Part shown: one piece after another, positions 48,630-58,011 of the stretch
Layout of the letters: each line of letters opens with the position of its first letter
Position numbering within the stretch: position 1 is the first letter of the stretch
Assembly (NCBI RefSeq): GCF_021491375.1
Contig: NZ_JAKEVY010000001.1
Span: 496,001-560,000, forward strand
DNA from: Flavihumibacter fluminis
GTDB lineage: Bacteria > Bacteroidota > Bacteroidia > Chitinophagales > Chitinophagaceae
Length of the DNA stretch: 64,000 nt
Direction of reading: 5' to 3'
Program-made: the position numbers and the translations under genes
Notes under the pieces: model-generated
The model's database searches: none
What the model was told of the DNA's origin: nothing
Seen by the model: the letters and a program-made list of their open reading frames with translations, nothing else

Positions 48630-49412
48630 ATGAAACAGCTCCTTTTTTTCCTGTTATTGGCTTTTTGTTCAAAGGCCACCCTGGCACAACAGTGGAAACT
48701 CGTTTGGTCGGATGAGTTCACGCTGCCCGGCTTACCGGATCCTTCCAAATGGGACTATGATATCGGAGGCAATGGCTGGGGCAACCAGGAAAAGCAGGTG
48801 TATACCAAGGCTGATCCCAAAACCGTGAGTATACGAAATGGCTCGCTGTTTATTACTGCCTATAAAACCCCGGAGGGCAAGTATCATTCGGCCCGATTGG
48901 TTACCCGCGGCAAAGCCGACTGGCGATATGGCCGGATAGAGATTCGGGCAAGGTTGCCCAGAGGGCGCGGGGTTTGGCCAGCCATCTGGATGTTACCAAC
49001 AGACGATGCCTATGGTGATTGGCCAACCAGCGGAGAAATTGATATCATGGAATTTGTCGGACACAACCCGGATTCTGTATTCACCAGTGTACATACCGAT
49101 GCCTACAATCACATGATGGGTACACAGAAAACAAAGGGGCATCTGTTACGGATGAACTGGCAGGATTTTCATGTATATGCCATCGAGTGGCTGGAAAATC
49201 ACATTCATTTTAAAATTGATGGCAATACCGTATTCAGCTTTAAAAAAGAAAAAGATGAGGCGGAAGTCTGGCCATTTGACCAACCCTTCTACCTCATCCT
49301 CAACCTTGCAATTGGTGGTACCTGGGGCGGTCAGAAAGGCATTGATGACAGTATCTTCCCGCAATCCCTGGAAGTTGATTATGTGCGGGTATCCCAACCC
49401 GCTGCCCATTAA
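48630..49412 (+). CDS. Secreted GH16 family endo-beta-glucanase (laminarinase-like)
   Basis: 260 residues. A signal peptide (about 20 residues, ending TLAQ) is followed by one GH16 domain of beta-jelly-roll type. The catalytic motif GEIDIMEFVG has nucleophile Glu136 and acid/base Glu141, and the EIDIME-with-bulge form is the bacterial beta-1,3-glucanase version. Aromatic residues WVWPAIWMLP-like line the cleft. It probably degrades laminarin-type or fungal beta-1,3-glucans. A TATCTTAG box, one mismatch from consensus, overlaps the upstream terminator tail. Confidence 0.93.
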   Translation: MKQLLFFLLLAFCSKATLAQQWKLVWSDEFTLPGLPDPSKWDYDIGGNGWGNQEKQVYTKADPKTVSIRNGSLFITAYKTPEGKYHSARLVTRGKADWRYGRIEIRARLPRGRGVWPAIWMLPTDDAYGDWPTSGEIDIMEFVGHNPDSVFTSVHTDAYNHMMGTQKTKGHLLRMNWQDFHVYAIEWLENHIHFKIDGNTVFSFKKEKDEAEVWPFDQPFYLILNLAIGGTWGGQKGIDDSIFPQSLEVDYVRVSQPAAH

Positions 49413-49636
49413 GGCGTTTTTTTCGGTGGCAGGGCGAAAGCCTTTGCTTCATGTTCAAAATGGCCTTTGTGTGAGCCATCGCAAAAGGGTTTGTTCTGTG
49501 ATAAACCACAGCGACAGATACTCACCAATGTACGACCACCTAAATCATAGAGATTGCCATCTTTATCGCGGATTTCAAAATCGCCTTCCACGCGCAGGGA
49601 TCCATTGTTATTAACAGTAATGATTGTTCCAGCCAT
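49409..49636 (-). CDS. CDGSH iron-sulfur domain protein
   Basis: 75 residues. The 2Fe-2S motif CRCGLSQNKPFCDGSHKG gives ligands Cys41, Cys43, Cys52 and His56, as in mitoNEET-type proteins. One CDGSH domain with a preceding beta strand region; soluble, no TM anchor. It may be an electron-transfer or cluster-transfer protein. It overlaps the convergent GH16 gene by 4 nt. Confidence 0.93.
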   Translation of the reverse strand: MAGTIITVNNNGSLRVEGDFEIRDKDGNLYDLGGRTLVSICRCGLSQNKPFCDGSHKGHFEHEAKAFALPPKKTP

Positions 49637-49680
49637 TAGTCTAAATTTTAGGATGCTAAAATAAGGGTTTAATTTGCACT

Positions 49681-50226
49681 ATGCAGGATACGGAAAACAT
49701 ACTGACCGCCACGCGGAACTGGATCAACAACGTGGTGATCGGTTGTAATTTCTGTCCGTTTGCAGCCCGTGAAATCAGGCGAAACAGCGTGCATTTTGAA
49801 CTGGCATCTGCAACCGATCCGGACCAGGTGTTGGAACAGTACCATCAACTACTTCAAAAACTGGATGAACATCCTGCCATCGAAACCGCTTTTCTGATAC
49901 TACCGGAAGGTTTCGGCGATTTTATGCACTACCTGGACCTGGTTGAAATGGCGGAAGAACTGATTGAAGAAGAAGACTACGAAGGCATCTACCAGGTTGC
50001 CAGCTTTCACCCGGCATACCTTTTTGCGGGTTCAGATACACAGGATCCGGCAAATTATACCAACCGGTCCCCCTACCCTATGTTGCATCTGCTGCGGGAA
50101 GAAAGTATTGAAAAAGCGTTAGAACACTATTCAGGTGATCCGGACGAAATTCCCGAGCGAAACATCCGGTTTGCAAGAGAGAAAGGCCTTGCATACATGA
50201 AAAGTCTGTTTAACAGCGGCATATAG
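49681..50226 (+). CDS. DUF1415 family protein
   Basis: 181 residues. The family landmarks are [18 protein letters not shown] near the N-terminus (a CxxC pair) and [15 protein letters not shown]...[23 protein letters not shown] in the second half. No function is established; the conserved Cys and His residues suggest metal binding or redox chemistry. A TTAATTTGCAC stretch just before the ATG is a shortened -7-like box. Confidence 0.88.
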
Positions 50227-50327
50227 ACCGCTCATCCCATTTTAAACATCCTTAACCAGAACAGGGTTCATACTGGCTTAGTTTTGCGGTCAATTCCCGA
50301 CCCGGTGAAAAATAGTTTGAATTGAAA

Positions 50328-50356
50328 TAGGGGTAATAAGCAGGCAGGTTGTCGGA
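50328..50356 (+). promoter_or_regulatory. Predicted ECF sigma promoter, copy 1 (autoregulatory)
   Basis: TAGGGGTAA, 11-nt spacer, GTTGTCGGA. The same two nonamers with the same spacer occur at 53819-53847 before the TonB-dependent receptor. Between the two copies the spacer shares no obvious identity, which argues for selection on the boxes. It lies about 60 nt before the sigma factor start. Assignment to the adjacent ECF sigma factor is inference. Confidence 0.8.
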
Positions 50357-50415
50357 CAGTAAAAGAACCTGTGTCGCTGAGTTTACCCATATCATACCAG
50401 CACCAACATGAACCA

Positions 50416-50988
50416 ATGGCCACTATTGAAGCCAGGCAGCCCATAGTACGCACCGATTTTGGATTGTTGCGTTTTGAAGAGGTATTTAAAACACATTTTA
50501 AAGCCCTCCATGCCTATGCCTACACGCTGGTACGGGAAGACATGCTGGCAGAAGAAATGGTGCAACAGGTTTTTTTCAAACTTTGGGAAAAAAGAGACAC
50601 ACTAAAGATTGAATCATCTGCAACTGCTTATCTCTACCGCTCTGTATACCACGAATGCCTGAATTACCTGAAGCACCAGAAAGTAAAAGCGGCCTATCAG
50701 CAGTACGCAAAAGCGATGCCCGAAGCTACCGCCGGTGGAGCGGCCCAAAAAATACAGTTAAGTGAGCTCCAACAACACCTGAACAAGGCATTAAGTGAAT
50801 TACCCGAACAATGCCGCACCATATTTCAGATGAGCCGGTATGAAGAACTGAAGTACCAGGAAATTGCAGATCGCCTGGGCCTATCTGTTAAAACCATTGA
50901 AAACCAGATGGGGAAAGCACTCCGTTTGCTGAGAGAAAAATTGAAAGATTTTTTACCCGTATTATTATTAATCCTGCTCAATCTCTGA
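50416..50988 (+). CDS. ECF RNA polymerase sigma factor (FecI-like, Bacteroidetes type)
   Basis: 190 residues from ATG 50416 (MATIEARQP); an in-frame GTG at 50371 would add 15 residues. Region 2 is FKTHFKALHAYAYTLVRED...FFKLWEKRD; region 4 is LSELPEQCRTIFQMSRYEELKYQEIADRLGLSVKTIENQMGKAL, a helix-turn-helix. It directs RNA polymerase to the signalling regulon. The FecR-like anti-sigma gene follows after 1 nt. Confidence 0.94.
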   Translation: MATIEARQPIVRTDFGLLRFEEVFKTHFKALHAYAYTLVREDMLAEEMVQQVFFKLWEKRDTLKIESSATAYLYRSVYHECLNYLKHQKVKAAYQQYAKAMPEATAGGAAQKIQLSELQQHLNKALSELPEQCRTIFQMSRYEELKYQEIADRLGLSVKTIENQMGKALRLLREKLKDFLPVLLLILLNL

Positions 50989-50989
50989 T

Positions 50990-52003
50990 ATGCTGCCCTT
51001 CCAATCCAACCATGCCATAGATGAGCTGCTGGTCAGTTACCTGCTGGGAGAAGCCACAGAGGAGCAACAGCGATCCGCCCTCAAATGGATCAGTGCCTCA
51101 GCGGAAAACGAACGGTATTTTCAGGAATTCCAACAGATTTGGGAAAAAAGCCGCGAACTGGCGGCCAATTCTTCAGTAGATGTAAACGCTGCCTGGGAAA
51201 GAATGCGGGAAAAACTGGAAAAGGGCAAAAATGGAAGAAAGGAAGAAAGGAAGATGGGAAGAAGGGAAGACGGAAAGGTTGTTAGTTTGGCAGGATGGTG
51301 GAGAAGGGCGGCGGCTATCCTTGCAATTGTGCTGACCGGTGCAGTAAGCTGGACGATCTACCGGCAATGGACAAACGCCGGATGGATGGAACTGGCGAGC
51401 CAGGAGGCGACACTTCTACAACTATTACCCGACAGTTCGAAAATCACCTTGAACAAAGGCGCAACAATTGAATATCCAAAACAATTTGCCCGGAATAAAC
51501 GCCGGATTAAACTGAAAGGGGAAGCTTTTTTTGATGTGAAAAGAAAGCCGGAACAACCATTTGAAGTCATGGTTAACAAACTAACCGTTACAGTATTGGG
51601 CACTTCCTTTAATATCCGGGAAACGGATTCTGCTACCATTGTAATCGTGGAATCGGGAACTGTTCAGGTAAGCGATGGGAATCAATCCATCGTGTTGAAT
51701 GCGGGAGAACAGTTGATTGCCGGTAACACTAAAAAGAGCTGGACAAAGGTTCAGCAAACAGATAAACTCTATCAATATTACCGAACCCGAACATTCAACT
51801 GCGACCGTACTCCATTGTGGAAACTGGTAGAAGTATTGAATGAAGCATATGATTCGAATATTGTAATTACCAATCCCGCCATCAGGGAACTGCCAATTAC
51901 TACAGTTTTTGAAAACCAGCCACTGGAAGAAGTTTTATCCATCATCTCCCAGACTCTGGACATTACCATCACCCGGAAAGACGATCAGATTTATGTGGAG
52001 TAA
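50990..52003 (+). CDS. FecR-like anti-sigma factor
   Basis: 337 residues. An N-terminal cytoplasmic sigma-binding segment (1-75, DELLVSYLLGEATEEQQRSALKW) is followed by a basic linker, one TM helix (about 108-128, AILAIVLTGAVSWTIY), the periplasmic FecR domain (LLPDSSKITLNKGATIEYP, GEAFFDVKRKPEQPFEVM) and the C-terminal DUF4974 domain. It holds the sigma factor until a signal arrives through the STN-domain protein. The linker (about 82-95) is encoded by five perfect-length 8-bp repeats, seemingly a repeat inserted into the gene. It overlaps the next gene by 11 nt. Confidence 0.94.
   Translation: MLPFQSNHAIDELLVSYLLGEATEEQQRSALKWISASAENERYFQEFQQIWEKSRELAANSSVDVNAAWERMREKLEKGKNGRKEERKMGRREDGKVVSLAGWWRRAAAILAIVLTGAVSWTIYRQWTNAGWMELASQEATLLQLLPDSSKITLNKGATIEYPKQFARNKRRIKLKGEAFFDVKRKPEQPFEVMVNKLTVTVLGTSFNIRETDSATIVIVESGTVQVSDGNQSIVLNAGEQLIAGNTKKSWTKVQQTDKLYQYYRTRTFNCDRTPLWKLVEVLNEAYDSNIVITNPAIRELPITTVFENQPLEEVLSIISQTLDITITRKDDQIYVE
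51233..51272 (+). repeat. Five-copy 8-bp tandem repeat inside fecR
   Basis: GGAAGAAA, GGAAGAAA, GGAAGATG, GGAAGAAG, GGAAGACG: five octamers, GGAAGANN, in the coding sequence between the sigma-binding domain and the membrane helix. They encode a highly charged linker (RKEERKMGRRED). The units resemble the intergenic array at 20747-20870. Confidence 0.92.
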
Positions 52004-53801
52004 TTGTATAACCGGACGCAGCATCTTCCGGAAAATAATGGTAGTACTTGGTTTTCTGGGTATAATGAATAGCCTGCAGGCACAGGAACATTTGAATAAA
52101 CCAATATCCCTTTCAGTAAACCGGCAGCCAATCGCAGATGTATTAGAAATCATCAGTAATAAGGGAAATTTCTACTTCAGTTACAATTCCAATATCCTTC
52201 CAAAAGACAGCCTGGTAAGTCTGCCGGCAGGTACCCGATCGGTACGCAACCTGCTGGAACTGCTGTTCCCGACTGGTTTTGAGTTTAGGGAAAGCGGACA
52301 ATACATTATCATCCGGAGAACCCCTCTCCAACTCAGCCTGGTAATTAAGGAATCCGCCACCAACGATAATCATTATTGGGTAAGTGGATATGTAAGGGAT
52401 GACCAAACCGGCGAGTTGGTTCGGGATGCCAGCGTTTATGAAAAAGACCGGCTTGTAGCGGCGCTTACCAATCGGCAGGGATATTTCCGGATCAAATTAA
52501 AAACACGTTATCCCCGGGCAAGCCTGACCGTCAGCAAAGAATTTTACAGAGACACTACTGTCACGATCCGTTCCGGTTATAACCAGGAAGTTCGTATCAC
52601 ACTGGCGCCCGTTGATCTGCAGGGCGCCACAGTTGTTGTTGGTCCGGCCCGGTTACCCGCCCCCGATTCCCTCTATATGGCCATTCCTCAACCCGATAGC
52701 TCTACCCTGCTCTATTTGTATAAAAGGATGGATTCGCTTCGGGTGCAGCGCACGGCTCTTGGTAAATTTTTCCTATCCTCCAAACTCAAAGTGCAAAGCA
52801 TTAACCTGAGTCGGTTTTTCACAGTAAGACCGGTGCAGGTTTCACTTACTCCCGGTCTTTCCAGTAATGGCAGGATGAATGCACAGGTAGTCAATAATTT
52901 CTCCTTCAACGTACTGGGTGGTTATTCCGGAGGCGTCAACGGAGCAGAAATCGGTGGCATATTTAACCTTAACAAAAAAGATGTGCAATATGCACAGGTA
53001 GCCGGAGTTGTGAATATAGTGGGGGGCAATATGAAAGGTGTACAGGTGGCAGGTGTACACAACATGGTACTCGATTCCGTTACAGGGGTGCAGGCAGGAG
53101 GAGTAGTCAATTTTGTTATGGGATCTTTTACCGGTGGACAGATTGGGGGCGTTATTAACTATACCAATCATGCTGTGACCGGGCTTCAGGTTGCCGGAGT
53201 TGGTAATGTGAGTGGCAGAGAAATGAATGGGGTCCAGATCGGGGGCGTATTTAATTATGCGAAAAAATTAAATGGCGTTCAGATCGGATTAATCAATATT
53301 GCAGACAGTTCAGATGGATATAGCATCGGCCTTATCAATGTGGTATTGAAAGGATATCATAAACTGGCTTTATATTCTACGGAAGTCATGCCTTTTAATG
53401 CCGCTTTTAAAACTGGTAATCACAAATTATACAGTATCCTTTTGGGTGGAGCGCACCCGGATACCGGCAGAAGAGTAGTTAGTTTTGGTTATGGCATCGG
53501 AACTGAAAGACGCCTGGGCAAGCGATTCTCACTTAACCTGGAGGCAAGTACCCAATATGTTTTCCTCGGTAGCTGGGAATACACCAATCTATTGACCAGG
53601 GCAACCGTAAACCTGCACTGGAAGATCAGCAAACATTTTTCGTTGTTTGCCGGACCTGCATTCTCGGTTTATCAGTCGGACCAGGATGTAAAGTTTCACG
53701 GTTATGCATACCCGATACCTGAAGCAGCCTACAAAACAGTTTCACTTGGTGGAAATCGCACCGGATGGCTGGGCTGGACGGGAGGCATACATTTATTCTG
53801 A
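51993..53801 (+). CDS. STN-domain surface protein with LA_2272-like 16-residue repeats
   Basis: 603 residues from ATG 51993, which overlaps the fecR stop; the longer frame lies inside fecR. A signal peptide ends SLQAQ. An STN (secretin/TonB short N-terminal) domain covers about 35-115 (ISLSVNRQPIADVLEIISNKGNFYFSYN), then a carboxypeptidase-regulatory-like beta domain (about 135-215). No TonB plug or receptor barrel follows. Instead, residues about 310-460 hold eight repeats of xQ[VI][AG]GVxN plus 8 residues, like LA_2272 surface repeats, then a small C-terminal beta region. It is placed where a FecA-type receptor normally signals to FecR. Confidence 0.85.
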   Translation: MWSNCITGRSIFRKIMVVLGFLGIMNSLQAQEHLNKPISLSVNRQPIADVLEIISNKGNFYFSYNSNILPKDSLVSLPAGTRSVRNLLELLFPTGFEFRESGQYIIIRRTPLQLSLVIKESATNDNHYWVSGYVRDDQTGELVRDASVYEKDRLVAALTNRQGYFRIKLKTRYPRASLTVSKEFYRDTTVTIRSGYNQEVRITLAPVDLQGATVVVGPARLPAPDSLYMAIPQPDSSTLLYLYKRMDSLRVQRTALGKFFLSSKLKVQSINLSRFFTVRPVQVSLTPGLSSNGRMNAQVVNNFSFNVLGGYSGGVNGAEIGGIFNLNKKDVQYAQVAGVVNIVGGNMKGVQVAGVHNMVLDSVTGVQAGGVVNFVMGSFTGGQIGGVINYTNHAVTGLQVAGVGNVSGREMNGVQIGGVFNYAKKLNGVQIGLINIADSSDGYSIGLINVVLKGYHKLALYSTEVMPFNAAFKTGNHKLYSILLGGAHPDTGRRVVSFGYGIGTERRLGKRFSLNLEASTQYVFLGSWEYTNLLTRATVNLHWKISKHFSLFAGPAFSVYQSDQDVKFHGYAYPIPEAAYKTVSLGGNRTGWLGWTGGIHLF

Positions 53802-53818
53802 TATTTTTTTCGCACACG

Positions 53819-53847
53819 TAGGGGTAAAGACATCAATCGTTGTCGGA
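53819..53847 (+). promoter_or_regulatory. Predicted ECF sigma promoter, copy 2
   Basis: TAGGGGTAA, 11-nt spacer, GTTGTCGGA, identical boxes and spacing to 50328-50356. The receptor ATG lies 15 nt downstream, a usual distance for a short leader. It implies the receptor is induced separately from the sigma-FecR-STN unit. Confidence 0.8.
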
Positions 53848-53862
53848 TAAAAAAACGATTTT

Positions 53863-56208
53863 ATGTATCTCAGGATCATTAACCTTATCCTTATTCAATG
53901 CATCTTTTTATTGCCGCTTACGGCACAGGTAAAACAGACCATAAAAGGTCAGCTGACAGACCAATTACTGCAACAACCTATTTCAGGAGCAACTGTAGAA
54001 ATCATTGGTCAGCGGAGAACCACTACAACAGACAGTGATGGAACTTTCAAATTTACGTTGGTACCCATTGGGGTGCACCAGCTGCGCATCACGCATGCCG
54101 GTTACAAACCCATCCTGCTTGAAAACATCATATTAAATGCAGGAAAGGAACTGGTGTTGAATCCTGCCATGGAACTGGATGTTCAGACACAGCAGGAAGT
54201 AATAGTAAAAGCTCGCGGAGTACGATCCAAACCATTAAATGAACTCAGTCTGGTTAGTGCCCGGGCCTTTTCAGTTGAAGAAACACAACGCTATGCAGCG
54301 GCAGTTAACGATCCGCTCCGGATGGCAACCAGTTTTGCGGGCGTTATCAGCGTAAATGACGGAGGGAATCATATTGTTGTCCGCGGCAATGCGCCCAATG
54401 CACTTTTGTGGCGAATGGAAGGCGTTGAAATTCCAAATCCCAACCATTTTGCTGTGCAAGGCAGTAGCGGAGGAGGCATATCTATTCTGAGTGCGCAGGT
54501 ACTCGCCAATTCAGATTTTGTAACGGGGGCATTTGCGGCAGAGTATGGAAATGCAGTGGGAGGTGTTTTTGATCTGCGATTGCGAAAAGGTAATAACGAA
54601 AAAAGAGAACATACCATTGAAGCCGGCGTACTTGGGATCAATGTAGCAAGCGAGGGTCCCTTCAGTAAAAACTATAAAGGTTCTTACCTGGTAAATTACA
54701 GATATTCAACCCTTGGGTTGTTAAGTAAAATGGGATTAAAAACGGTAGGTGAAGGAAGTACTGATTTCAGTGATCTCTCCTACAATATTAACCTGCCTGC
54801 GGGTAAAGCTGGACAGTTCACCTTATTTGGACTCAATGGATGGAATAGCCAGGATTTACCCATGGAAAAAGATCCTTCAAAATGGGAGGAAGAATGGAAC
54901 CGCTATGGAGGGAAATACAGAGGGGCTACCAATGCCAATGGACTTACCCATTCCATCGCACTTTCCGCCCGCACAAAACTGAAAACCGTCCTGGTCAATA
55001 GCAAACAGGAAAACACCAGCAATCAGCAATATTTGGAAAATGATGAAACGATCACCAACGCTTTTCGTGAAAAATTCTCTACCGGCAAATGGACGGTAAG
55101 CAGCACGCTGAACAGCCAATTGAGTCGTAAACAGGCCCTTCGTGCAGGTGTAATTTTCCAGCAAATCAATTTTAATTACCTGCAGCGTTCCAGGGAAAAC
55201 AATCAGGCACCAGTGGAAGAACGAATTAACGTGAAGGATCAAACGCAACTAATGCAGGCTTTTGCCCAATGGCAATACAAACCCTCCAATCAACTGGTAT
55301 TAACCGGCGGCCTGCATTTTCTGCATCTGATGCTAAATAAGACAACAGCTGTTGAACCCCGGTTTGCCATGCAATGGACGCCGGATTCCAAAAACAGTTT
55401 TGGGCTTGGCTATGGCTTGCACAGCCAGGCACAGATCATGGGAGTGTATTTCGCCCGCACCAAAATTAATAATGAATGGATGCAACCAAATAAGGAACTG
55501 GGGTTTACGAAATCACACCACCTGGTCGGATCCTATACCCGGCAACTGATGAAAGGGTTGCGATTGAGAACTGAATTGTACTACCAGCAACTCTTTAATA
55601 TTCCGGTTAGCATTTATGATACCAGCAGTTTATCAACCGTAAACATTGGTGAAAATTATGTGCTTGATCCACTTACAAACAAAGGCAAGGGCAGGAATTA
55701 TGGTGTAGAGATCTCGCTGGAAAAACAGTTGCGTAACAATTTCTATTTTCTTTTTTCCAATTCTTTATACCAATCCAAATATACTGCTGCCGATGGCATC
55801 GAGCGAAATACCCGGTACAATGGCGGTCATGCCAATTCACTAACGTTGGGAAAAGAATTTATTCATCCCGGGAAACAACGAAGTTTTGCGGCCAATATCA
55901 AAGTTATTTATGCCGGAGGCTTCCGGGAAACACCTATGGATGAAGAAGCAACACTTGAGCTGGGATACGCCAAATACCGCGAAGCAGAAGCATTTACGAT
56001 ACAGCAACCTGCTTATTTCAGAACAGATATCCGTTTGAGCATGAAATGGAATGCTTCCAGCACGACACATGTTTTATCACTCGATATTCAAAACATGACC
56101 AATCGCCAGAATATTTATGCCCGTTATTTCGACAGTGTCAAAGGAGCAATCAGTACGGTTTACCAGGCAGGCATTATTCCGGTGATTGCCTATCGACTTG
56201 AATTTTAA
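53863..56208 (+). CDS. TonB-dependent receptor (without STN domain)
   Basis: 781 residues. A signal peptide (about 1-21, ending LTAQ) precedes a carboxypeptidase-regulatory-like domain (25-108, IKGQLTDQLLQQPISGATVEI), a plug (about 125-240, NHIVVRGNAPNALLWRMEGVEIPNP, FAAEYGNAVGGVFDLRLRKG) and a 22-strand barrel ending YRLEF. It is not SusC-like and there is no susD partner. The ligand is unknown. No STN domain is present; that domain is in the upstream gene. Confidence 0.93.
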   Translation: MYLRIINLILIQCIFLLPLTAQVKQTIKGQLTDQLLQQPISGATVEIIGQRRTTTTDSDGTFKFTLVPIGVHQLRITHAGYKPILLENIILNAGKELVLNPAMELDVQTQQEVIVKARGVRSKPLNELSLVSARAFSVEETQRYAAAVNDPLRMATSFAGVISVNDGGNHIVVRGNAPNALLWRMEGVEIPNPNHFAVQGSSGGGISILSAQVLANSDFVTGAFAAEYGNAVGGVFDLRLRKGNNEKREHTIEAGVLGINVASEGPFSKNYKGSYLVNYRYSTLGLLSKMGLKTVGEGSTDFSDLSYNINLPAGKAGQFTLFGLNGWNSQDLPMEKDPSKWEEEWNRYGGKYRGATNANGLTHSIALSARTKLKTVLVNSKQENTSNQQYLENDETITNAFREKFSTGKWTVSSTLNSQLSRKQALRAGVIFQQINFNYLQRSRENNQAPVEERINVKDQTQLMQAFAQWQYKPSNQLVLTGGLHFLHLMLNKTTAVEPRFAMQWTPDSKNSFGLGYGLHSQAQIMGVYFARTKINNEWMQPNKELGFTKSHHLVGSYTRQLMKGLRLRTELYYQQLFNIPVSIYDTSSLSTVNIGENYVLDPLTNKGKGRNYGVEISLEKQLRNNFYFLFSNSLYQSKYTAADGIERNTRYNGGHANSLTLGKEFIHPGKQRSFAANIKVIYAGGFRETPMDEEATLELGYAKYREAEAFTIQQPAYFRTDIRLSMKWNASSTTHVLSLDIQNMTNRQNIYARYFDSVKGAISTVYQAGIIPVIAYRLEF

Positions 56209-56233
56209 TCATTAACCATTCAGATTTTATACC

Positions 56234-56953
56234 ATGAAAAAAACTACGCTACTATTCGCACTGCTGATCCTGGGGATCAGCGCTATACTGCCTTCCTGCA
56301 CCAAAGTGAACGGCAAAGGTCCGGTTGTATCCAAGATCCGGGAGGTTGGCAATTTTACTAAAATTGATTTTGGAACAACAGGACGGCTCTATTACAAAAC
56401 AGGTTCTGAGCACCGGGTTGAAATCCGTGCACAACGTAATATTCAGGACGTAATTGAAGCTTTTGTCAGTAACGGAGAATTAAATTTAAAGATCCGCAAC
56501 AATACCTGGATTCATTCTTATGAAACCATAGAAGTATATATTGAATCACCTGCCATTAATGGCTTCAAAGTGAATGGTTCCGGTGATATCTATGCAAGTG
56601 ATCCAATTGAAACGAATCAGTTTTACACAGATATCAACGGGTCCGGAAAAATAGATATCCGGGAACTGGTCACTCCTCAAATGGAAGCAGATGTGAATGG
56701 CAGTGGTGATATCCTTATCCGAGGAGGTTCCATTGGGAATGCCAACCTGGATATCTCCGGCAGTGGTGATATCAATATGATCGGGTGCGAGACTACTGAA
56801 ATGAAAACGGAAACCAGCGGCTCCGGAGATATGCGGGTATGGGTAACCGACAAACTGAATGCCCGGATCAGCGGCAGCGGTTCAGTAAAATACAAAGGCA
56901 ATCCGCAGGTAACCGTAAAAGTTTCCGGATCCGGTAAAGTTGCGCCATACTAA
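56234..56953 (+). CDS. Head-GIN domain (DUF2807) lipoprotein
   Basis: 239 residues. Lipobox ILPSC, then a DUF2807 right-handed beta-helix with recurrent GSGDI, GSGKI, GSGDM, GSGSV turns about every 18-20 residues. Such proteins are auto-transporter-adhesin-like by fold and sit on the outer membrane or periplasm of Bacteroidota. It lies 25 nt downstream of the receptor gene and is probably co-transcribed from the ECF promoter. Confidence 0.9.
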   Translation: MKKTTLLFALLILGISAILPSCTKVNGKGPVVSKIREVGNFTKIDFGTTGRLYYKTGSEHRVEIRAQRNIQDVIEAFVSNGELNLKIRNNTWIHSYETIEVYIESPAINGFKVNGSGDIYASDPIETNQFYTDINGSGKIDIRELVTPQMEADVNGSGDILIRGGSIGNANLDISGSGDINMIGCETTEMKTETSGSGDMRVWVTDKLNARISGSGSVKYKGNPQVTVKVSGSGKVAPY

Positions 56954-56992
56954 GCACAGGATAACAAAAATGCGATGTTAATACAAAGGACC

Positions 56993-57000
56993 TAATTTTG
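56993..57000 (+). promoter_or_regulatory. -7 box of the YpdA-like gene
   Basis: TAATTTTG, a perfect TAnnTTTG, 24 nt before the ATG at 57025. It rules out the TTG at 56998, which overlaps the box. Confidence 0.6.
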
Positions 57001-57024
57001 GAACTTGTATTAACATCGTACTTC

Positions 57025-58011
57025 ATGACATCTTACGACCTGGTGATAATCGGAGGCGGCCCCATCGGACTTGCCTGTGCATTGGAAGCACGGAAAGCGA
57101 AATTGAATTATGTAATCCTTGAAAAAGGTTGCCTGGTTAATTCGCTTTATCACTATCCGGCCAATATGACTTTTTTTTCAACATCCGAACGGTTGGAAAT
57201 TGGGAACGTACCATTTGTATCCAATAACAATAAACCTACCCGTGCTGAATCGCTGGAATATTACCGGCGTGTTGCTCAAAGTCACACATTGAATATCCGG
57301 CTGTTTGAAGAAGTTTTGTCGGTTAAGAAAAGCAAAAAGGGCTTCACTGTTACCAGTAGCAAGGAACGCTATAGTACCAGTTATGTAATCATCGCCACTG
57401 GTTTTTACGACATCCCCTATCAGTTAAACGTGCCTGGAGAAGAACTCCCCAAGGTTACACATTATTACAAGGATCCACATTTTTATGCATTCCAGAAAGT
57501 AGCGGTAATCGGAGCCCAGAATTCTGCTGTTGATGCAGCCCTAGAAACATGGCGGAAAGGCGCGGACGTAACCATGATCATCCGCCAGTCAGAAATTGGT
57601 CAGCGTGTTAAATACTGGGTAAGGCCGGATATCATTAACCGTATTGAGGAAGGCTCCATTAAAGTCTATTTCAACAGCCAGGTTTCGGCTATTCGTGAAC
57701 GTGAGATAGATATTCAGACACCCGACGGAAAAGTAACCATCGCCAATGACTGGGTACTGGCCCTGACTGGATATGAACCCAACCTGGAATTTTTGAAAGT
57801 CTGCGGTATCCGGTTGAGTAAGGATGAAGTGAGGCAACCCGAATACGATCCCAAAACACAGGAAACCAATGTACCCGGATTATACCTGGCCGGAGTAATT
57901 TGCGGAGGCATGAATACCCACAAGTTATTTATTGAAAACTCACGTATTCATGCGGAGCATATAATCAAAGATATTCGTAGAAAGGATCGGGTTGCCGGCA
58001 GCATCAGATAA
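57025..58011 (+). CDS. YpdA-like FAD/NAD(P)-binding reductase (putative bacillithiol disulfide reductase)
   Basis: 328 residues from ATG 57025 (MTSYDLVIIGGGPIGLACA). The FAD-binding GGGPIG at 10-15 and a second dinucleotide fold VAVIGAQNSAVDAALE are present; there is no CxxC thioredoxin-reductase active site. CLVNSLYHYPANMTFFSTSE is characteristic of YpdA. YpdA reduces bacillithiol disulfide in Firmicutes; Bacteroidota also make bacillithiol-type thiols. No bsh gene is in the window, so the role is inferred from the family. It overlaps the convergent permease gene by 8 nt. Confidence 0.9.
   Translation: MTSYDLVIIGGGPIGLACALEARKAKLNYVILEKGCLVNSLYHYPANMTFFSTSERLEIGNVPFVSNNNKPTRAESLEYYRRVAQSHTLNIRLFEEVLSVKKSKKGFTVTSSKERYSTSYVIIATGFYDIPYQLNVPGEELPKVTHYYKDPHFYAFQKVAVIGAQNSAVDAALETWRKGADVTMIIRQSEIGQRVKYWVRPDIINRIEEGSIKVYFNSQVSAIREREIDIQTPDGKVTIANDWVLALTGYEPNLEFLKVCGIRLSKDEVRQPEYDPKTQETNVPGLYLAGVICGGMNTHKLFIENSRIHAEHIIKDIRRKDRVAGSIR

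Follow-up and report, generated by a model that had tools for sequence, protein, structure and literature searches.

Gene cluster and motif pair

The 64,000-nucleotide (nt) stretch of the Flavihumibacter fluminis genome analysed here (assembly GCF_021491375.1, contig NZ_JAKEVY010000001.1, positions 496,001 to 560,000; in the following, the window) carries a gene cluster encoding an extracytoplasmic function (ECF) sigma factor, a FecR-type anti-sigma factor, a third protein with an STN domain and barrel-like strands, a TonB-dependent-receptor-like protein and a DUF2807 protein. Within this cluster, the motif TAGGGGTAA-N11-GTTGTCGGA occurs twice, at the predicted promoters P1 and P2 (Table 1). 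An original prediction, made from the letters of the window, had described an identical motif before the sigma factor gene and the receptor gene, with unlike spacers and no third copy in the window, and all of this holds: both copies are exact and in the orientation of the genes, their spacers have identical bases at 1 of 11 positions, and a window scan at up to three mismatches returned zero further matches. Shuffling the window 100 times gave a mean of 0.02 matches per window, and no shuffle contained two.

Table 1. Predicted promoters and genes of the cluster (window coordinates)
Feature	Position	Strand	Basis or remark
P1, predicted ECF promoter of the sigma operon	50328..50356	+	Exact motif; sites before ECF orthologues
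P1 elements	-35 TAGGGGTAA 50328-50336; -10 GTTGTC 50348-50353	+	59 nt upstream of the ECF start codon
ECF sigma factor, 190 aa from ATG 50416	50416..50988	+	Pfam Sigma70_r2 and Sigma70_r4_2 above cut-off
FecR-type anti-sigma factor, 337 aa	50990..52003	+	Pfam FecR and FecR_C above cut-off
Third protein: STN, CarbopepD_reg_2, LA_2272 repeats, C-terminal barrel-like strands	51993..53801	+	Pfam, NCBIfam, AlphaFold, Foldseek
P2, predicted ECF promoter of the TonB-receptor-like gene	53819..53847	+	Exact motif; equivalents in relatives
P2 elements	-35 53819-53827; -10 53839-53844	+	15 nt before the receptor ATG
TonB-dependent-receptor-like protein, CarboxypepD_reg and plug	53863..56208	+	Pfam
DUF2807 (head GIN domain) protein	56234..56953	+	Pfam; 25 nt past the receptor gene

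The sigma factor shows only sigma regions 2 and 4 in a short protein, as is characteristic of the ECF group (group 4), and scored 174.3 bits with the NCBIfam model TIGR02985 (cut-off 126.4). Its gene is separated by 1 nt from the gene of the FecR-type protein, which scored 61.3 bits for FecR and 45.4 bits for FecR_C and has one hydrophobic stretch, as judged by eye. For the third gene we chose the ATG at 51993, overlapping the fecR stop, an alternative ATG lying at 52038; the third protein reached 31.0 bits with the LA_2272 repeat model NF047436 (cut-off 25), and at E<=0.05 CarbopepD_reg_2 was found in 20 and STN in 17 of 20 members of its homologue set. Among 11 homologues of the receptor-like protein, Pfam at the same threshold recognised CarboxypepD_reg in all, a plug in ten and the receptor barrel model in one, and STN was absent from the families listed; the plug match of the window's own receptor is below the Pfam cut-off.

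P2 starts 17 nt past the end of the third gene, and no terminator-like site was listed between 53801 and 53863 in a scan of 49600-57100 for sigma-70 promoters and terminators, a scan that is uninformative for Bacteroidota, its yield being no higher than in shuffles. Because none was listed there, P2 looks like an internal promoter, as far as the sequence tells. The DUF2807 gene is probably co-transcribed with the receptor gene. It is followed at 56998-58011 by a gene whose product resembles, by eye, an FAD-dependent disulphide reductase at its N-terminus; this gene has no motif copy of its own, stands in the same order in two relatives of the same genus (L078, L086) and may be read through from P2. 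Upstream of the cluster lies a glycosyl hydrolase family 16 gene (48630-49412), again with no copy of the motif.

Searching the whole 4.71-Mb genome, as had been suggested together with the original prediction, revealed three credible copies, two in the cluster and one before a barrel-like gene, and thus no spread of the motif before many unrelated genes. The third copy has one mismatch and lies about 174 kb from the first one (G000:C11:720737-720765, minus strand). At up to three mismatches the scan gave four hits against six for the reversed pattern; the fourth hit, with three mismatches and inside an open frame of 822 codons, was rejected as noise. A relaxed pattern with one mismatch allowed gave five hits (control 11), its perfect matches being only P1, P2 and the third copy, and the one-mismatch hits of the loosest pattern, which matched 14 times in total and its control 33 times, were likewise discarded.

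Conservation of the site and its downstream genes

In the family, the ECF protein was matched at E<=1e-20 in 132 of 195 genomes, and 66 genomes with a clearly closer match (best E <=1.3e-48, counted by hand) formed the orthologue set. Allowing three mismatches, the motif was found before the ECF gene in 29 of the 30 best family matches, our own genome included, compared with 1 of 600 shuffles, which preserved base composition only. Its distance from the inferred start is 33-61 nt, in most cases 52-61 nt, and the spacer, for which 10 to 13 were permitted, is 11 in all 29 sites. The exact form TAGGGGTAA-N11-GTTGTC occurs 48 times in 30 of the 195 genomes (reversed control, 0), and genomes with it have the ECF orthologue in 29 of 30 cases, in comparison to 37 of 165 among the others (Fisher 3e-15).

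A second set was obtained by scanning with an alignment of the third protein, from which the best 80 of 119 loci, mostly from Chitinophagaceae or from metagenome-assembled genomes (MAGs) of Bacteroidetes, were taken as named loci. They carry an ECF gene in 77 cases, 67 of these with the motif before it at up to two mismatches, 27-73 nt away and in 61 of the 67 at 50-66 nt; the 67 sites represent 63 distinct sequences, some loci being near copies. Since named loci and family genomes overlap (for example L138 and G008:C14), the sets of 30 and 77 are not independent samples. Over the 1.03 Mb of named loci, 144 sites share the strand of the genes and 3 are on the opposite one, and 136 of the 144 have an open reading frame (ORF) of at least 100 codons starting with ATG within 150 nt, compared with 303 of 800 random positions. 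Between site and ORF, the spacings met most often are 10-19 nt (36 sites) and 50-69 nt (55 sites), corresponding mainly to outer-membrane genes and the ECF gene in the 20 clusters examined in full. Judged by the third protein, Flavihumibacter cheonanensis WS16 (L178, 97% identity) is the nearest of the named relatives. Two database labels attracted attention: L138 (MAG record JAEUVF010000013) is labelled Flavipsychrobacter, a label that looks wrong, its third protein being 96% identical to that of the window and its ECF protein grouping with the Flavihumibacter rows; L216, on a contig filed as Azovibrio restrictus (MAG XYLBin2), resembles the loci of Chitinophagaceae and has the same ECF promoter sequence as L197, the contig being probably mis-binned.

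Across the class, 67 of 295 genomes contain a match to the third protein at E<=1e-30; from the best-matching ones we selected 20 loci, which represent 14 further families. Sixteen of the 20 hold a site at up to two mismatches, with 26 sites in total and two in the reversed control; in eight such a site precedes the ECF gene. Three others show the site between the ECF gene and fecR (L231:1718, L233:1811, L234:1717), an arrangement in which the anti-sigma gene rather than the sigma gene would be feedback-regulated.

The core kept across relatives is TAGGGGTA(A/T)-N11-GTTGTC, while the trailing GGA was found, among 237 loci, only in genomes of the same genus or in loci named as, or nearly identical to, Flavihumibacter. 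Among 134 sites, a set chosen at up to two mismatches, T1, G3-G6, G24 and T25 are invariant, A2, T7, A8 and T23 are nearly so, and the 11-base spacer holds little information. The last base of the -10 element is mostly C, with T in one part of the tree, and this applies to both sites: comparing the ECF site with the first downstream site, we counted C/C in 35 loci, T/T in 11, T/A in 3 and T/C in 1, a match that is expected if both are read by the same protein. Candidate specificity residues of the sigma factor for C-type and T-type promoters, such as position 78 (Y/H), were dropped for being confounded by descent.

Neighbourhoods were examined in full in 20 of the 66 orthologue genomes. Separate genes for a TonB receptor, a second LA_2272-like barrel and a DUF2807 protein often have their own motif copies there, the DUF2807 homologue in several relatives; L096 (G042:C75:23170-28768) displays four copies within 5.6 kb, before the ECF, second barrel, DUF2807 and receptor genes, and in L080 and L082, for example, the sole site is the one before the ECF gene. 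The third copy in our own genome ends 19 nt before the start of a gene for a 208-aa protein with a signal-peptide-like start and a barrel-like sequence. Neither this protein nor the second LA_2272-like barrel at L085:4584-5666 matched any Pfam or NCBIfam model, "barrel-like" referring for both to sequence and similarity to the third protein and not to a family model. At E<=1e-15 the 208-aa protein has matches in 12 of the 195 family genomes, its own included; our own gene and the eight other close homologues (E<=3e-60) all have the motif with 0-4 mismatches, 22-56 nt before the matched start, and the three weaker homologues (E 2e-23 to 8e-29) have none. A remote homologue (29% identity) lies in the ECF cluster of another family (L233), with a three-mismatch site before its gene. 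A third gene target, predicted from the sequence, is supported by this conservation. Farther from the clusters, we inspected 20 distal loci of our own choice, of which 13 have an exact site and five a site with one mismatch, the other two being a known site (L134) and a cluster (L137). Eight of the 13 exact sites precede genes that look like outer-membrane genes from their N-termini, judged by eye, at distances of up to 213 nt.

Reading of the sites and a proposed signalling route

Taken together, the comparison across relatives points to a conserved, usually autoregulated ECF/FecR regulon as the best reading, and a well-supported one: very probably the sites are ECF promoters and the sigma operon is autoregulated. 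The motif is thus best seen as the putative recognition site of the sigma factor, as the original prediction had proposed. Its further suggestion of a paired, autoregulated mini-regulon is supported too, with two amendments. Autoregulation is predicted in most relatives examined, from sites that lie mostly 50-66 nt before the ECF orthologues; it is not universal, and the regulon exceeds a pair.

The paralogues of the sigma factor bear on whether one reader is enough. Among 40 of them, picked by hand from the ECF match list and not at random, and tested with shuffles of the same kind as the orthologues, one, G119 with 43% identity, has the motif before its gene and could be an orthologue that has diverged. 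Upstream of some of the FecI-type paralogues (L102, L105, L107, L111, L113) stands TAAGGG-N15-GTGTC instead, with the geometry of TAGGGG-N15-TTGTC; at up to two mismatches this element stands before 5 of the 40, three of them exact, where 0.64 were expected, and it may belong to a readable promoter code of the FecI-type sigma factors of the phylum. The motif could then be a promoter read by several FecI-type sigma factors, with a shared regulon and autoregulation that is only apparent, and both the related element and G119 would fit. We regard this as unlikely, as 39 of the 40 paralogues are without the site, the exact motif tracks the ECF orthologue in 29 of 30 genomes and the scan of our own genome ended with three credible sites. 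Less probable still is that the motif is an operator for another DNA-binding regulator of the sigma operon and its targets, with a different sigma factor transcribing them. A conserved site beside a gene does not by itself reveal the protein that reads it, which keeps some room for such a regulator; two short, non-palindromic blocks 11 nt apart with a GTC-type -10 element look like a promoter, however, as do the orientation with the gene (144 to 3) and the position mostly 10-70 nt before start codons. A dispersed repeat or mere chance is hardly credible as the source of the two sites: the shuffles and the conservation exclude chance, the spacers and flanks are unlike, and nothing was found in favour of either.

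Several findings weigh against the conserved ECF regulon or narrow it. The start sites, binding and expression in this reading are predictions from sequence. The only paralogue with a copy, G119, bears the very site attributed to the orthologous clade, and 37 of the 66 orthologue-bearing family genomes are without the exact core motif. Ten of the 77 ECF genes in named loci have no site at up to two mismatches; six of these ten show one with 3-4 mismatches at 39-61 nt and one (L158) ends at a contig edge before the promoter, leaving L177, L202 and L205 with an intact upstream region and no recognisable site. At class level, a site directly before the ECF gene is absent at up to three mismatches from ten of the 20 loci. 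On account of these three named loci and of the class-level sites before fecR, autoregulation is not universal. Several rows are near copies, which means that the counts are not independent events, and the C/T covariation of the -10 element amounts to four changes on the tree with two supported independent pairs, for which a sign test (p 0.5) is powerless. Five of the 13 distal exact sites are not before an obvious outer-membrane gene. As to the third protein, the STN match of the window's own copy is weak (E 0.019, below the cut-off), and its AlphaFold model (mean pLDDT, the predicted local distance difference test, 78) is only moderately confident overall, with a predicted template modelling score (pTM) of 0.46.

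On the reading as an ECF regulon, P1 and P2 would provide the -35 and -10 promoter elements recognised by the sigma factor of the cluster, which FecR would keep at the inner membrane. Once active, the sigma factor would start transcription at P1 for its own operon (the genes of the ECF factor, the FecR-type anti-sigma factor and the barrel protein with the STN domain), at P2 for the TonB-receptor-like gene with the DUF2807 gene downstream, and at the third site for the distant barrel-like gene. In this way the sigma operon would be autoregulated, and the internal promoter would boost the output genes. The STN domain of the operon's outer-membrane barrel would contact the C-terminal domain of FecR and relay the signal, as FecA-type STN domains do elsewhere; in known cell-surface signalling, the C-terminal domain of FecR and the STN domain of the receptor are described as partners in the accessible part of the source (PMC11637429).

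For the structure, the third protein of the window was aligned with its counterparts from 65 of the 80 named loci; L162, whose translation contains a stop codon, L139, a near copy, and 13 further loci were left out. From the N-terminus, the model displays an alpha-beta domain, a beta-rich domain, a linker of low confidence, short repeated strands and long C-terminal strands. In its numbering the STN domain falls at about residues 22-97. A Foldseek search with the whole model gave zero matches at E<=0.001, the best one having 1.4e-3. Among the 50 matches listed were a carboxypeptidase regulatory domain, small outer-membrane barrels, the PilQ N0 domain at rank 25 and the PupA signalling domain at rank 50 (E 0.19), all of them with weak E-values.

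We propose the barrel of the operon as the sensor, because the STN domain is on the barrel protein and was not found on the 11 receptor homologues. Such a split sensor, in which the STN barrel of the sigma operon and not the TonB receptor senses the signal, is a possibility to which we give somewhat less than an even chance. The targets look like surface proteins; a Porphyromonas gingivalis protein is described as an adhesin in a paper whose accessible part uses the terms DUF2807 and head GIN domain (PMC10949514). The most natural guess for the signal is a cell-surface or envelope cue. Extended to the whole class, these elements might, in a reading put forward tentatively, form a common Bacteroidia system, in which a split-off STN/LA_2272 barrel would relay an envelope or surface signal to FecR and the ECF sigma factor would regulate itself and drive a surface regulon of STN-less receptor, LA_2272 barrels and DUF2807 adhesin-like protein from one promoter code kept across the class, some lineages having switched to autoregulation of the anti-sigma factor.

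Comparison with known systems

Few ECF sigma factors of Bacteroidota have a known promoter specificity, though one bacterium may have dozens of such factors; 50 are given for Bacteroides thetaiotaomicron in the consulted part of one source (PMC12596196), and according to the available text of a paper from 2020, a motif was then known for none of the ECF sigma factors of that species (PMC7366714). Putative ECF promoters with a short -10 element have been described as SM6 in Flavobacterium psychrophilum and as PM2 and SigW-1 in B. thetaiotaomicron (PMC9723704, PMC7366714, PMC12596196). Compared by their descriptions in the accessible text and not as full motifs, these differ from our site in a CGT box, the near-palindromic form of PM2, TGTT near -10 and other targets. 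In the open literature searched, we found no paper naming our motif or operon, a prior prediction in ECF re-classification work being possible. The present comparison links a single recognition sequence to a single orthologous ECF clade and its regulon over dozens of genomes, an assignment open to direct tests with reporters.

Another Bacteroidota ECF system that connects an outer-membrane domain to a sigma factor is Dma, described with a single anti-sigma protein whose domains extend from the outer membrane into the cytosol (PMC13088901). In comparison, FecR, with its 337 aa, and the outer-membrane barrel are encoded by separate genes in our cluster, and identity with Dma was rejected on this ground.

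The closest parallels are with FecI-FecR-FecA systems such as Fec of Escherichia coli and Fox and Pup of Pseudomonas. Shared with them are an ECF sigma factor gene with an adjoining gene for a FecR-type anti-sigma factor containing FecR_C, an STN domain on a protein of outer-membrane type and a TonB-receptor-like gene as the likely target. A candidate cognate promoter stands 15 nt before the receptor gene here, and a site precedes this gene in many relatives. Two features set our cluster apart. The sigma operon carries a promoter copy of its own, while for fecIR of E. coli and for hasI a lack of autoregulation is described (PMC9249621), which makes the predicted autoregulation a difference from Fec. 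Furthermore, the STN domain was not found on the receptor-like protein in the 11 members compared and is carried instead, in 17 of 20 members, by a separate LA_2272-repeat barrel encoded with the sigma factor. If true, the separation of STN from the receptor would be a testable variant of cell-surface signalling, and the wider value of the locus may lie in the assignment of a promoter to a conserved ECF clade together with a possible split-sensor variant of a system of known kind.

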